From: Methanorbis rubei
Lineage (GTDB): Archaea > Halobacteriota > Methanomicrobia > Methanomicrobiales > Methanocorpusculaceae
Assembly (NCBI RefSeq): GCF_032714495.1
Contig: NZ_JAWDKB010000003.1
Location: 186,001 to 250,000, forward strand
Direction of reading: 5' to 3'
DNA length: 64,000 nt
The position numbers were made by a program, and so were the translations under genes. Shown here piece after piece: positions 23,100 to 27,739 of the stretch (positions are counted from its first letter, which is position 1; the number at the start of each line of letters is the position of its first letter). The notes under the pieces are model-generated. The model searched no databases. It saw only the letters and a program-made list of their open reading frames with translations, and was not told the DNA's origin.

Positions 23100-25109
23100 T
23101 CACTTCCATTTCGCAAGAATTCCAGGCAACGTATCTGCGTCGCACTCTTTGAGCTCTGCCTTCATCCAGGGCGGAAGTCCGGAAAAGATCTCAGGATCCA
23201 AAAACCGTTCCTCGCCTAAGATAAGCACGCCGCGATCCGTCTCGGTTCGGAGAACGCGGCCGAGCGCCTGCAATGCCTTGTTCATCGCAGGAAGCGTATA
23301 GGCGATGAACTCTCCTTCGCTTCCAAACTTTCGCTTAAAGTAGCTGTTCACCATCCGCCTCACTTGTGTAAACGGTGCCAGAGGAAGACCAATCACCATC
23401 GCCGCAGTCAGTTGATCGCCGCGGTAGTCAAGCCCCTCGCTCCATTTTCCTCCGCAGACCGCAAACATCACGCCCGACTTTCGCTGACTCGGAAGGCTGA
23501 TGAACTCCTTGAGTGCTGCGTTCGCCTCCTCGGTCTCGCGTGGCTCGATGAACACCTGCTTTGACCGAATTTTTCCATCACAGAGCTTCGCAAACTGCGA
23601 CTGCAACTGGTACGAAGGGAAGTATATCGCAATGTTTCCGGGAAGCTTTGCGAACGCAAGAATGTAGGCGGTGATAGCCGCCGTATTTTCCGAGTTCTGC
23701 CGCCGCGAAAATGCAGTCGTGATATCACGGCTGCCGAGCACCAGACGATTCTCTTTTGGAAACGAGTTCGGCAGAGACAACGTCCCAACCGGCATCTCGC
23801 CGAAATAGTAACGCCGATAGGACTCTACCGGCGCAAGAGTTCCGCTGATAAGAACGGTCGCCGCATGCATCGAAACCATCTCCTGCAACCGGTTTGCCGG
23901 ATCGATGTTTCTCACCTCAAGATTTACCGCATCCCCGTCTTTCACATAAACCGTCAAAAATGCCGGGTCGGATGAAGACCGGTAAATCCTGAACAGAAAC
24001 TCGCACAGCCGTTCGATTGCCGTCTCGCGGTACTCAGCCTTCTGAATACTTGCCTCGCGAAGCGTCTCCTTAATCGACAAAAGATCATCTAAGATGTCGT
24101 CGAGTTTCGTGTAGAGCGAACCCTTGATTAACAATCTGTTAAAGATTGTCGGATCAAACCAGTCCTCCACCTCGTTCGACCGCCTCAGTCCATTCATGAA
24201 CTCAGCAATTCTCGGCAGAACATGACGGACCGCATCAGCCCCGCGAACCTTTCCGCGGATCGAGGCGAGCTCATGCGAAGCATTTTCGATATCAGTCTCG
24301 CTGAGACGGATGCTCTGAATGCCCTGCACCACATCGCCGAGATTGTGGGCTTCGTCAAGAAGCATCATCACGTCCGTTGGCTCGCATTGGAGAGTCACAT
24401 ACAGCTGTTCGCGAATATCGTCGTTGAAGAGGTGATGATAGTTGAGAATCACCACGTCAGCCCCGCGAGCCGCAGAAAGCATCAGATCGTACGGACAGAC
24501 GCTGCCGGCAAACTCATGCAGATCGGCTGGCATGACAACACCCTTCTGTGCCCGCTCGGCTTTGGTTCGCATCTCAGGAGACGGGATGAGTCTTCTCCCG
24601 CCGTCCTCTCCCTGCACAAATACACGGCTGTTCACAAAGTAGGGACAGATCATCGGATGATCGCGGTCCTGCTTTCGAATTTGTTCAAGGATCATCTTGT
24701 CCTTTGACGGAACCATCGAACCGCGGTCTGCCCGCTCCTGCATGAGAGCGGTCGAGAATGCTTTCACTCCCTCGCATCTGCGGTAGACATCGCCGTACCC
24801 GCCTAACGGACACATGTTTCCTTTGCCGATCAAGTAGACGAACTTGAGGTCACGCTTTTTCTTCTGCCTGATGAGTTCAAGTTCGCGGATGAAGATCTGC
24901 AGCTGCGAAATTGTTCTGACCGCAACAAAAATTTTTTTGCCGTTTGCCTCGGCAAGCAGGGGAGCGATCACGCTTGACTTGCCGCTTCCGGTTGGTGCAT
25001 CCACCATGAGAATGCCGCCTTCCCGAGCGGTCTTTGCTACCGCTTCCAGCATCTCTTTCTGGTTGTTGCGGTAGGACTGATAGGGGAAGTAGTCGGCGAT
25101 GGATGACAT
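23100..25109 (-). CDS. XPD/Rad3-like 5'-3' DNA helicase with iron-sulfur domain
   Basis: A 669-residue superfamily 2 helicase. DAPTGSGKSSVIAPLL is Walker A and LLDEAHNL the DEAH box. Four cysteines between them (GNMCPLGG, RRCEG, MICPYF, SVCPYD) form the 4Fe-4S domain that separates strands. GKWSEGLDYRG and the QALGRVLRTETDRG motif VI follow. XPD opens DNA 5' to 3' in repair. It is co-transcribed with the alkyltransferase gene. The start MSSIADYFPYQSYRNNQ matches the family, with the Q-motif near residue 16. Confidence 0.9.
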   Translation of the reverse strand: MSSIADYFPYQSYRNNQKEMLEAVAKTAREGGILMVDAPTGSGKSSVIAPLLAEANGKKIFVAVRTISQLQIFIRELELIRQKKKRDLKFVYLIGKGNMCPLGGYGDVYRRCEGVKAFSTALMQERADRGSMVPSKDKMILEQIRKQDRDHPMICPYFVNSRVFVQGEDGGRRLIPSPEMRTKAERAQKGVVMPADLHEFAGSVCPYDLMLSAARGADVVILNYHHLFNDDIREQLYVTLQCEPTDVMMLLDEAHNLGDVVQGIQSIRLSETDIENASHELASIRGKVRGADAVRHVLPRIAEFMNGLRRSNEVEDWFDPTIFNRLLIKGSLYTKLDDILDDLLSIKETLREASIQKAEYRETAIERLCEFLFRIYRSSSDPAFLTVYVKDGDAVNLEVRNIDPANRLQEMVSMHAATVLISGTLAPVESYRRYYFGEMPVGTLSLPNSFPKENRLVLGSRDITTAFSRRQNSENTAAITAYILAFAKLPGNIAIYFPSYQLQSQFAKLCDGKIRSKQVFIEPRETEEANAALKEFISLPSQRKSGVMFAVCGGKWSEGLDYRGDQLTAAMVIGLPLAPFTQVRRMVNSYFKRKFGSEGEFIAYTLPAMNKALQALGRVLRTETDRGVLILGEERFLDPEIFSGLPPWMKAELKECDADTLPGILAKWK

Positions 25110-25136: not shown

Positions 25137-25332
25137 ATAATGGAGTTACGCTTTGTCTGGTTTAACATCTTTCATCTTGAACCGCCCACGGAAAAACGGA
25201 ACACACTGAAAAAAAACATCACGGAGCAGACGTGAACAACACGGAATCCGAAAACAATTCATTTCTGTGATGTTCACGCCTCTCAGTGATATTTTTCGGT
25301 GAATTTCCGTGTGCTCCGCTTTTCTGTGGGAG
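25137..25332. repeat. Family A palindromic element A5, degenerate
   Basis: Begins with ATGGAGTTACGC, a form of the shared family end, then CCCACGGAAAAACGGAACAC opposite GTGTGCTCCGCTTTTCTGTGGG. Arms are diverged and the loop differs from other copies. It occupies the spacer upstream of the XPD-like gene. Confidence 0.65.
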
Positions 25333-25448
25333 AAAAACCATTGAAAAAAAGTATTGGGGTATCCGTTGTGTGTGGGGATTATCGGATACCGACTATGAAT
25401 GAATGCTTGTGTGTGGTGGTTGCTTGTGTGATGTTGCTTTTCTGTACA

Positions 25449-25505
25449 AATCACGACTCTGTAGCAGTCGTGATTCAATATTATTCAGACTTTGTAGCCG
25501 AATAA
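25449..25505. ncRNA. Two adjacent hairpins with the same loop word
   Basis: The first hairpin (AATCACGACT / AGTCGTGATT, 10 perfect pairs) has loop CTGTAGC; the second (TTATTC / GAATAA) has TTTGTAGC in its loop. They lie 5 bases apart in noncoding sequence between element A5 and the structured RNA. The repeated TGTAGC loop suggests a small RNA or a binding site, but no promoter is obvious. Confidence 0.3.
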
Positions 25506-25644
25506 CATTGTCTGTTGTGATCTTTTCAGGATTTTTCCCGAACTCTCACAACCATATACAAATAGAACTCCGCTGTATAAAACCTTTTACATAATGTGTT
25601 GGAAGCTCGTCATATTTTCAGACAAACTGAGAAAACAATTTTGA

Positions 25645-26003
25645 TACGAAAAGGTGAGGCACGCGATTAATGAGTCTTATCGCGTGCCATAGGTTCGGCT
25701 TGTGGAGAACCGTATACCCGTTTTTTGGAGAGTATGTGTGTGTGGTATGAATGTGTATGTAACTGTCCGAAGGCTGGAAGACTCTGCCGGTCTTTGGACA
25801 AACTGTAGCTGTGGTTGGGGCAAGGGTGTTTTGCCCTATTCTGGCCTGTTCCTTCTGGTGATTCACAGATCTTGCCACTATCACAAATCCTGCCGGCAGC
25901 TTTCAATTCGGGGGCAAAAGCTGCCTTCGGAACTGGAGAGTGCAGTTCTGTAACGAGTGCCGACCCCTCCCCGGAGTTCTCAGAGTCTGGAGCCTTCACT
26001 CGT
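25645..26003 (-). ncRNA. Candidate structured noncoding RNA, about 360 bases
   Basis: Minus-strand unit with its own signals. A TATA box (TTTATAGG, 26033-26026) sits about 25 bases before position 26003, where the first helix begins (ACGAGTG 26003-25997 with CACTCGT 25959-25953). Further helices: 25948-25943/25935-25930; 25925-25917/25903-25895 (nine pairs, AAAGCTGCC type); 25836-25831/25823-25818; 25800-25796/25768-25764 with an inner AAGAC/GTCTT; 25711-25707/25696-25692; and a perfect ten-pair terminal hairpin 25688-25679/25667-25658 (GGCACGCGAT) followed by TCACCTTTT. Motifs of RNase P RNA (GAGGAAAGTCC) and SRP RNA (GGAAG plus AGCAG) are absent. Identity unknown. Confidence 0.6.
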
Positions 26004-26025
26004 TGATAGTATAGTACGTCACAAT

Positions 26026-26033
26026 CCTATAAA
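26026..26033 (-). promoter_or_regulatory. TATA box of the structured RNA
   Basis: TTTATAGG on the minus strand, about 25 bases upstream of the first paired base of the RNA at 26003. The distance matches normal archaeal TATA-to-start spacing. Confidence 0.5.
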
Positions 26034-26110: not shown

Positions 26111-27739
26111 TCACATCTTTTTTGTCTTGCGCACGCGGACGGCAACGCCGCGGGAAGAGCGAAGCATCTCATCAGCACTCATCGCAGCTTTTCCGGTCGC
26201 AAGATACCCCGAACCGGTCACATAGACCTCATCGCCTTCACGAATGTTTGGATCACAATTCAGAATACCGGGCGCAAGAATATCTCCCTGCGGCACAAAA
26301 CCATCGCTGATCGTAACGCGGTAACCGGAGATGAACTGCCAGCCTTCCATCGTCGGTCTGAGAAGGCCGGTCGAGCTGTCGATGGAAAATATCTGCTGTT
26401 TTTTGTCAAAGATCTTCTGTTCAGGATACCTGCCTTTCGTTATCCATCCTTTCGTATCGACAAGTTCGCCGAACTGCCAGGCAAGCGTTCCGCGAATGGG
26501 GTCGGAGCGGCGTTTGCGGCAGTCGTGCAGGGCATTGTTCAGCGCCCGCAACGAGTCTGGGGAAGAGGGGCGGTCGTCATTGCAGGTGTGTTCAAGAACA
26601 ACGCCCGCTTTTTCTGCAGCAGCAGTTGCCACGGCTTTTGCTCCTCCTTCGAGATGACAGATGACTTGTTCGTAACGATGCTTTGCAAGATATGCTGCAA
26701 CGTACTCGACAAGGATTGCCGACTCTTCGCGGTCCCAATATCCGGTTACCGGTACATCATAGTGGCCGGCAGGATAGAGAAGTTCAAGCTCGCGGGGCAC
26801 GACACCCAACGGCGAGGTGATGATGACCTCGTGTGCCCGACCTTCGACAACTCTCTGAAACTTTTGATGAGTTTTCGAAAGCGAGTAGGGTTTTCGTGCG
26901 GCGCAGGGCAGGAGGACGCAGACATCATTTCGCGAAGGAACAAATCTGTTCACCACGCGGTCTTCGAAGAATGCAATCTCCGGTCGCGTCATGGACTCGG
27001 CGGAGTTTGCCATGAAATGTGAGGACCGCACAGCAGGCAGAGCGGCTGAGGTGACTGGCGATCGGTCAAGATGACGGAGCAGGCCTACCTGTTCGGCATG
27101 AAGTCTGCATCGCTGCTCAATCAGCTCGCGAATCTGTCCTGACTCGATCCATGTTTTCACCACAGCAATCTCGCGGTCGAGAGCGAGTCTGTTATGCAGA
27201 GCAAGGTCGCCTGCCTTGCATCCTTCGCAGCCGCAGACGCCCTTCTCCATATAGGATGCATCGAACTCGCCTTCGGTCATGCAGAATTTTTTCTGGATGC
27301 TGGCGAGATCGACTGCGGTGTAATCAAAGAGATCAAAACCGGTCGCTATCAGCATCGCAACATTTGACGGAAGTGCGGATGCCGGAGAGTAGCGGGCAGT
27401 GTCTGGCGGAGTTCTTGCAAAAAGCGGAGAGAGATACTCCACATATCTGCGGGCGTTTCCGAGGACCGACCGCCAGCCGGGAACCATCACGACGTCGCCG
27501 GACTCTGCGGGGCAGTCTGCAAACGGATGGAAGGAGACCGGATCTTTACCAGCCACATAATATTTGTCTGCGTCAGACTTTGGTGCGGAAAGCGGGAGGT
27601 TGGTGAACGGCCGATTCAGCAGCGAGGGAAACAGCCTGAGTATGTCGACTGCTGCCGGAGTTTTTATCTCTTCGTCACCGACGCGGAGCATGCCGGTTCT
27701 GGCAAGGCCGTCGCGGACTCTCGCGTCAAAGACGCTCAT
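26111..27739 (-). CDS. arcS: Archaeosine synthase ArcS (alpha subunit)
   Basis: A 542-residue protein, TGT-paralogue fold with C-terminal PUA domain. The central [22 protein letters not shown] with its PC-ARKPYS-S-H motif is characteristic of ArcS, and the last 80 residues ([23 protein letters not shown]) form the PUA RNA-binding domain. CGCEGC near residue 168 is a Cys cluster. It converts preQ0 at tRNA position 15 to archaeosine, together with a radical-SAM partner in some archaea. The start overlaps the tgtA stop as ATGA, so both steps of the modification are translationally coupled. Confidence 0.9.

Follow-up and report, generated by a model that had tools for sequence, protein, structure and literature searches.

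Bacterial sponge RNAs of the CsrB/CsrC type carry a short GGA motif that is repeated and exposed in loops and linkers, and the RsaE/RoxS RNAs of the Firmicutes are sRNAs with C-rich loops. The locus described here resembles the former in that a short motif recurs in exposed loops and linkers of paired RNAs; however, this motif is CA/CCACA and not GGA. With RsaE/RoxS it has in common unpaired C-rich motifs (CUCUCC, CCCC) that could pair with a Shine-Dalgarno sequence, but no enrichment of such pairing was found at start regions. To our knowledge, only a small number of trans-acting RNAs in archaea are understood, and a search of the literature yielded no description of such an RNA for Methanocorpusculum. 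The Methanosarcina RNA sRNA154 acts through two exposed loops, one of which is directed against a ribosome-binding site (PMC5867862). The first RNA of our locus, RNA1, resembles this and further archaeal intergenic sRNAs (PMC5867862) in being encoded independently between genes and in having stable hairpins and loops that are exposed. Unlike them, it is longer (about 320-430 nt, depending on the species), is part of a tandem, contains a CA-rich linker and has no match in Rfam.

The window analysed is a stretch of 64,000 nucleotides from a gut-type methanogen of the genus Methanocorpusculum, and all coordinates without a contig label refer to it. A gap of 1 kb lies between the end of arcS at 26111 (26111-27739, minus strand; DUF5591 and PUA domains, adjoining a TGT-domain gene) and the start of a DinG/XPD-like helicase gene at 25109 (23100-25109, minus strand), and it contains two small non-coding RNA genes. 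An earlier reading of the sequence without database searches (the sequence-only reading) had proposed one structured minus-strand RNA of about 360 bases in this gap, and this RNA was recovered as RNA1 (~358 nt, 25647-26004, minus strand) on the strength of its fold, its orthologues and covariation. The reading overlooked the second gene, RNA2 (25553-25344), as well as a copy of a dispersed inverted repeat (GTTCACGTCTGCTCCGTGATGTTTTT together with its reverse), which fills the window at about 25150-25340. This repeat is MITE- or REP-like and has 111 matches with up to three mismatches in 1.72 Mb of the genome; a second dispersed repeat, AAACACGAACCACACGAAAAA, has 29 matches, often as facing pairs (e.g. 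at G000 C3:231033 and C4:207545). Matches pointing to a phage or plasmid origin of the region were sought and none were found.

A DNA search of 100 relatives detected the RNA1 region in five genomes only, namely this genome (G000), G018, G008, G021 and M. petauri MG (G004), and in each of them it follows arcS. A covariance model of the RNA1 5' domain, run against 120 relatives and, with laxer settings, across the genus, returned the same five genomes and no others, weak antisense self-matches having been set aside.

The TATA box of RNA1, TTTATAGG, is located at 26026-26033 (minus strand) as previously proposed, and the predicted start at 26004 lies 21 bases past it; box and spacing are unchanged in all five species. 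The 359-base RNA1 stretch folds with -113.9 kcal/mol, whereas 100 dinucleotide shuffles gave -95.7 +/- 6.1 kcal/mol and were without exception less stable (z = -3.0). At the predicted 5' end begins the hairpin P1/P2 (AACGAGUG...CACUCGUU, 25952-26004, minus strand), so that a first helix at the start, followed by several others, is present as the sequence-only reading had it. P1 is invariant across the five species and is uninformative either way on pairing; P2 has undergone compensatory rewriting (GGCUCC/GGGGUC, GGACCC/GGGUUU, UUCCGG/CCGGAA) and is poorly paired in G004 (3/6). The long imperfect hairpin P3 (25865-25951, minus strand) has a conserved CACUCUCC internal loop, a C-rich apical loop and covarying pairs. 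Between P3 and P5 lies a variable stretch, which is absent from G004 and longer in G008 and G021. In P5 (25764-25800, minus strand) the letters are replaced and pairing is kept in all five species, the arms reading, for instance, UGUCC/GGACA, CUGCCGCAGACCGG/CCGGUCUGCGGCAG and GCUGCACUGAU/AUCAGUGCAGC in three of them.

The CA-rich single-stranded linker noted earlier is real. It reads ACACATTCATACCACACACACATACTCTCC (25727-25756, minus strand), is identical in three of the five species and differs by dinucleotide-repeat indels in the other two. It is followed by hairpin P6 (25696-25712, minus strand), with a covarying stem and a CUCCACA loop that is invariant in 5/5 species, and by the terminal hairpin P7 (25658-25688, minus strand), which precedes TCACCTTTTCG and is also kept in all five. 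The arms of P7 (25688-25679 with 25667-25658) form the perfect 10-bp stem of the sequence-only reading and show a G-C to A-U double change among species. The T-run that had been assigned to this hairpin is weak: it consists of TTTT, about 5 bases past the terminal stem.

RNA2, a structured non-coding RNA of ~210 nt (25344-25553, minus strand), is conserved in the same five species. Its TATA box TTTATACA (25574-25581, minus strand) is conserved in position in all of them, and upstream of this box lies a further element, ACACATTATGTAAAA (25585-25599, minus strand), that is near-invariant. The RNA begins at its predicted start with the hairpin GUUGUGA(G)/(C)UCACAAC, continues with two more helices and then a CA-rich linker, CAACCACCACACACAAGCATTCATTCATA (25394-25422, minus strand), whose 29 bases are identical in 5/5 species and which occurs in a single copy per genome. 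The terminal hairpin (25358-25390, minus strand) has the loop UCCCCACACACAA, of which CCCCACA is kept in 5/5 species, a stem that covaries (U-A to C-G), and a T7 run behind it. The consensus fold obtained with alifold gave a z-score of -4.6 (5' domain, -6.0), with 0/300 shuffles as low, and all four helices covary or persist across the species. The spacer between RNA1 and RNA2 is poorly conserved and contains large indels. The two RNAs have a common design, with a hairpin at the start, a linker rich in CA, and a terminal hairpin whose loop is C/A-rich.

For RNA1, alifold yielded a z-score of -7.6 for the 5' domain and again -7.6 for the 3' domain, and both beat 300/300 column shuffles. Standard pairs occupy 93.6% of the pair cells in the 5' domain, compared with 33-43% when one strand is slid, and nine double changes were counted there against 4.0 expected from shuffles. 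Upon inspection by hand, species by species, compensatory rewriting was seen in P2, P5, P6 and P7, and the homologues in four other species show compensatory changes in nearly every helix. The linkers are near-invariant while the RNAs drop to 56-65% identity. Promoters of their own, conserved structure, a 3' hairpin and no coding capacity, the features by which archaeal intergenic regulatory sRNAs are recognised, were all found here. We are highly confident that two conserved non-coding RNA genes exist at this locus, and we infer that RNA1 and RNA2 are transcribed from their own promoters. The earlier proposal of an independent, lineage-specific RNA is supported by the comparison, except that this RNA is not single and is the first of a tandem pair. 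At the level of sequence comparison, selection on the RNA, the promoters, the non-coding nature, the tandem arrangement and the related loci described next are established.

Genome-wide motif scans, which covered stretches of this genome totalling 1.72 Mb, revealed one 14/15 match elsewhere to the RNA2 upstream box ACACATTATGTAAAA, at C5:31121 on the minus strand. It heads a third RNA, RNA3 (G000:C5:30816-31120, minus strand), which has one hairpin at its 5' end, another at its terminus and a long CA-rich linker, and which lies upstream of a gene for a DUF2178 membrane protein. Throughout the clade RNA3 is conserved; M. labreanum (strain Z, G015) and its relatives have a shorter form, with CCCACACA as the loop of the terminal hairpin. 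Across the genus it measures 130-300 nt and retains a CUGAAG hairpin and the CA-rich linker; G014 has three tandem copies. Outside the genus, the RNA3 model gave weak matches (E 0.02-0.04) that are without the CA-rich design, look like chance and were rejected.

A fourth RNA, RNA4 (G000:C1:352958-353254, plus strand), was found by a scan for CA-rich stretches; it is conserved in the clade and has a UCCACAC loop. Between its TATA box and its start sits the palindrome TTACTATTAGTAA. Scanning both strands of the 1.72 Mb with one mismatch allowed gave just one other site for this rare element, which has one mismatch and is located before an hsp20-like gene, apart from a site of the one-mismatch class, C3:223274, that came up in one scan only. 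Matching sites in several relatives also precede hsp20-like genes. The hsp20-like protein of M. labreanum matches Pfam HSP20, and the short N-terminal piece of the protein from this genome gave no Pfam match. The predicted operator common to RNA4 and the hsp20-like genes suggests that RNA4 is controlled by heat shock. A further CA-rich candidate, G000:C6:4598-4777, was discarded, since none of the other genomes contains a match to it. Neither the RNA3 nor the RNA4 locus matched an Rfam family.

A 16-mer, CATTCATACCACACAC, is common to the linkers of RNA1 and RNA3 in M. petauri and G008, and 0/300 shuffles produced a word as long. Words common to RNA1 and RNA2, and most of those common to RNA2 and RNA3, are within chance. 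CCACA was present in 22/22 inspected loops (shuffled mean 2.9), but these loops were picked by hand, and the count is partly a matter of ascertainment since RNA4 was chosen for its CA content. Among hairpin loops genome-wide, CCACA was not enriched over permuted motifs. RNA1-RNA4 are thus likely to have a common origin as far as their design is concerned; descent from one ancestor would be a plausible reading of this design, which the hand-picked loops, the genome-wide frequency of CCACA and the chance-level words of RNA1 and RNA2 leave unproven. RNA1 itself probably belongs to a small family within the genus, and the resemblance of the RNA pair to these further genes therefore makes it look like a new archaeal RNA family.

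In a tree of ArcS, the carriers of the RNA pair fall within one clade of eight (support 100/100). Two genomes inside this clade, G016 and G013, are without the pair at the arcS locus, and in a third, G001, the contig ends just inside arcS. A gain of the pair in the ancestor of the clade with later losses is the simplest account, and the tree also permits other histories. In G016, the gap of ~220 bases after arcS contains an unrelated strong hairpin (GAGTTGCGGGG...CCCCGCC...CAACTC) where the RNA pair would be; this hairpin might represent a different RNA or a remnant. The neighbour downstream of the pair varies among species, being either the helicase or a permease gene, while the RNAs stay. 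The position beside the archaeosine operon, which the sequence-only reading had pointed out, therefore seems incidental.

Our preferred interpretation, in which we place somewhat better than even confidence, is that RNA1 and RNA2 are independently transcribed, structured tandem RNAs within a small genus family and most likely act in trans as regulators. The 5' hairpin would protect the end of each RNA, and the stable terminal hairpin would end it. The CA-rich linker and the C/A-rich loops (CUCCACA, CCCCACACA) would stay exposed as working parts; they are the likely contact surfaces because change is resisted most strongly in unpaired parts, namely these. Such surfaces could contact either the 5' regions of mRNAs or a dedicated RNA-binding protein. 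For the family as a whole, action in stress or environmental control is probable since it includes RNA3, which lies before the DUF2178 gene, and RNA4 with its predicted hsp20-type operator. A regulatory role of RNA1 and RNA2 is likely, and the mode of regulation is proposed from their conserved parts.

When linkers and loops were compared by duplex energy with 1,428 start regions, no enrichment over shuffled segments was found. The best hit was the start of an FMN-reductase-like (flavodoxin-like) gene (G000:C2:190938-191480, minus strand), where complementarity to the linker of RNA1 extends over 13 bases. It was rejected as a target because G018, a close relative, has no close orthologue and the checked orthologues do not have the site; it is probably due to chance. 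A locus with an apparent anti-Shine-Dalgarno match, taken up as a candidate 16S rRNA for comparison with the RNAs, proved not to be a 16S gene and was discarded. With the duplex search unenriched and its sole striking hit not conserved, a protein-binding role becomes a serious rival to mRNA pairing. The RNAs would then be decoys or RNP scaffolds, in which CA-rich/CCACA repeats titrate or assemble an RNA-binding protein without pairing to mRNA, as in CsrB. The recurrence of near-invariant unpaired elements in both tandem RNAs, RNA3 and RNA4 fits this explanation, but its partner protein is putative and the order of the linkers and the words flanking them differ between the RNAs, and we regard it as rather unlikely. 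We consider it very improbable that, instead of being genes in their own right, the RNAs form the 3' UTR of arcS or else a leader to the helicase or permease gene downstream. They do lie immediately between these neighbours and share their strand; however, each has its own conserved TATA box at normal distance and a terminal hairpin, and they persist when the downstream neighbour is exchanged.

Membership in a known class of stable RNA would be suggested by the size of RNA1 and by its multi-helix fold, which place it in the same size class as archaeal RNase P RNA (RF00373) and SRP RNA (RF01857), and by the UACAGA that follows hairpin 1. Archaeal H/ACA guide RNAs are marked by a pseudouridylation pocket, by a kink-turn or kink-loop and by an ANA box behind the stem. 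Rfam 15 gave no family at gathering score in the window, and permissive scans produced matches at chance level only. Intact RNase P RNA (G000:C3:59829-60142, 194 bits) and SRP RNA (G000:C7:18703-19014, 195.5 bits) are encoded at other loci, and neither model has a match in the window. RNA1 was thus rejected as either of them, in agreement with the sequence-only reading. The internal loop of hairpin 1 in this genome measures just 2 by 2 bases, which is not a pocket of pseudouridylation size, and RNA1 is absent from most of the genus, unlike what is expected of a housekeeping RNA. A diverged housekeeping RNA (RNase P, SRP, or an H/ACA or C/D guide) or a ribozyme is very unlikely, and for RNase P and SRP this explanation is largely refuted. 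It is also very unlikely that a short protein, or a DNA-level element such as the inverted repeats of a mobile element, has been mistaken for RNA. Frames of 107-143 codons are open over the RNA region in single species, some of them because RNA1 is poor in T, and dispersed repeats adjoin it. Against this, most of the RNA1 indels that separate the species have lengths other than multiples of three, and indels break every frame; mismatches are spread evenly over the three codon positions; and the ORFs have no Pfam match, among them the 110-aa ORF over RNA1, which is not conserved. A protein-coding gene was rejected on these grounds, and the gap is without a credible protein, as had been stated before. 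The RNAs are also single copy in each genome, and conservation extends beyond the arms to loops and linkers, which argues against a mobile element.

Independent tandem RNAs with a likely regulatory role thus remain our preferred reading, and two to four of these strongly conserved RNA genes are present in a genus of which strains are in culture; RNA1-RNA4 are carried by M. petauri MG and RNA3 by M. labreanum Z. Their function is directly testable because carriers can be grown, the ends of the RNAs are predicted precisely, there are candidates for the working parts, and RNA4 has a predicted heat-shock operator. The carrier clade holds an isolate from the marsupial gut (PMC10035134). As the pair is confined to this one clade of the genus, RNA1 and RNA2 may be part of an adaptation to the gut. 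More tentatively, and with clear doubt, RNA1-RNA4 could form a family of CA-linker RNAs that spans the genus, follows a single plan and serves one dedicated RNA-binding protein or set of targets. One member would be in the heat-shock regulon, and the RNA1-RNA2 pair would be an addition in a single clade, to which gut isolates belong. If true, archaea would have a kind of multi-copy global regulatory RNA system not previously seen in them.
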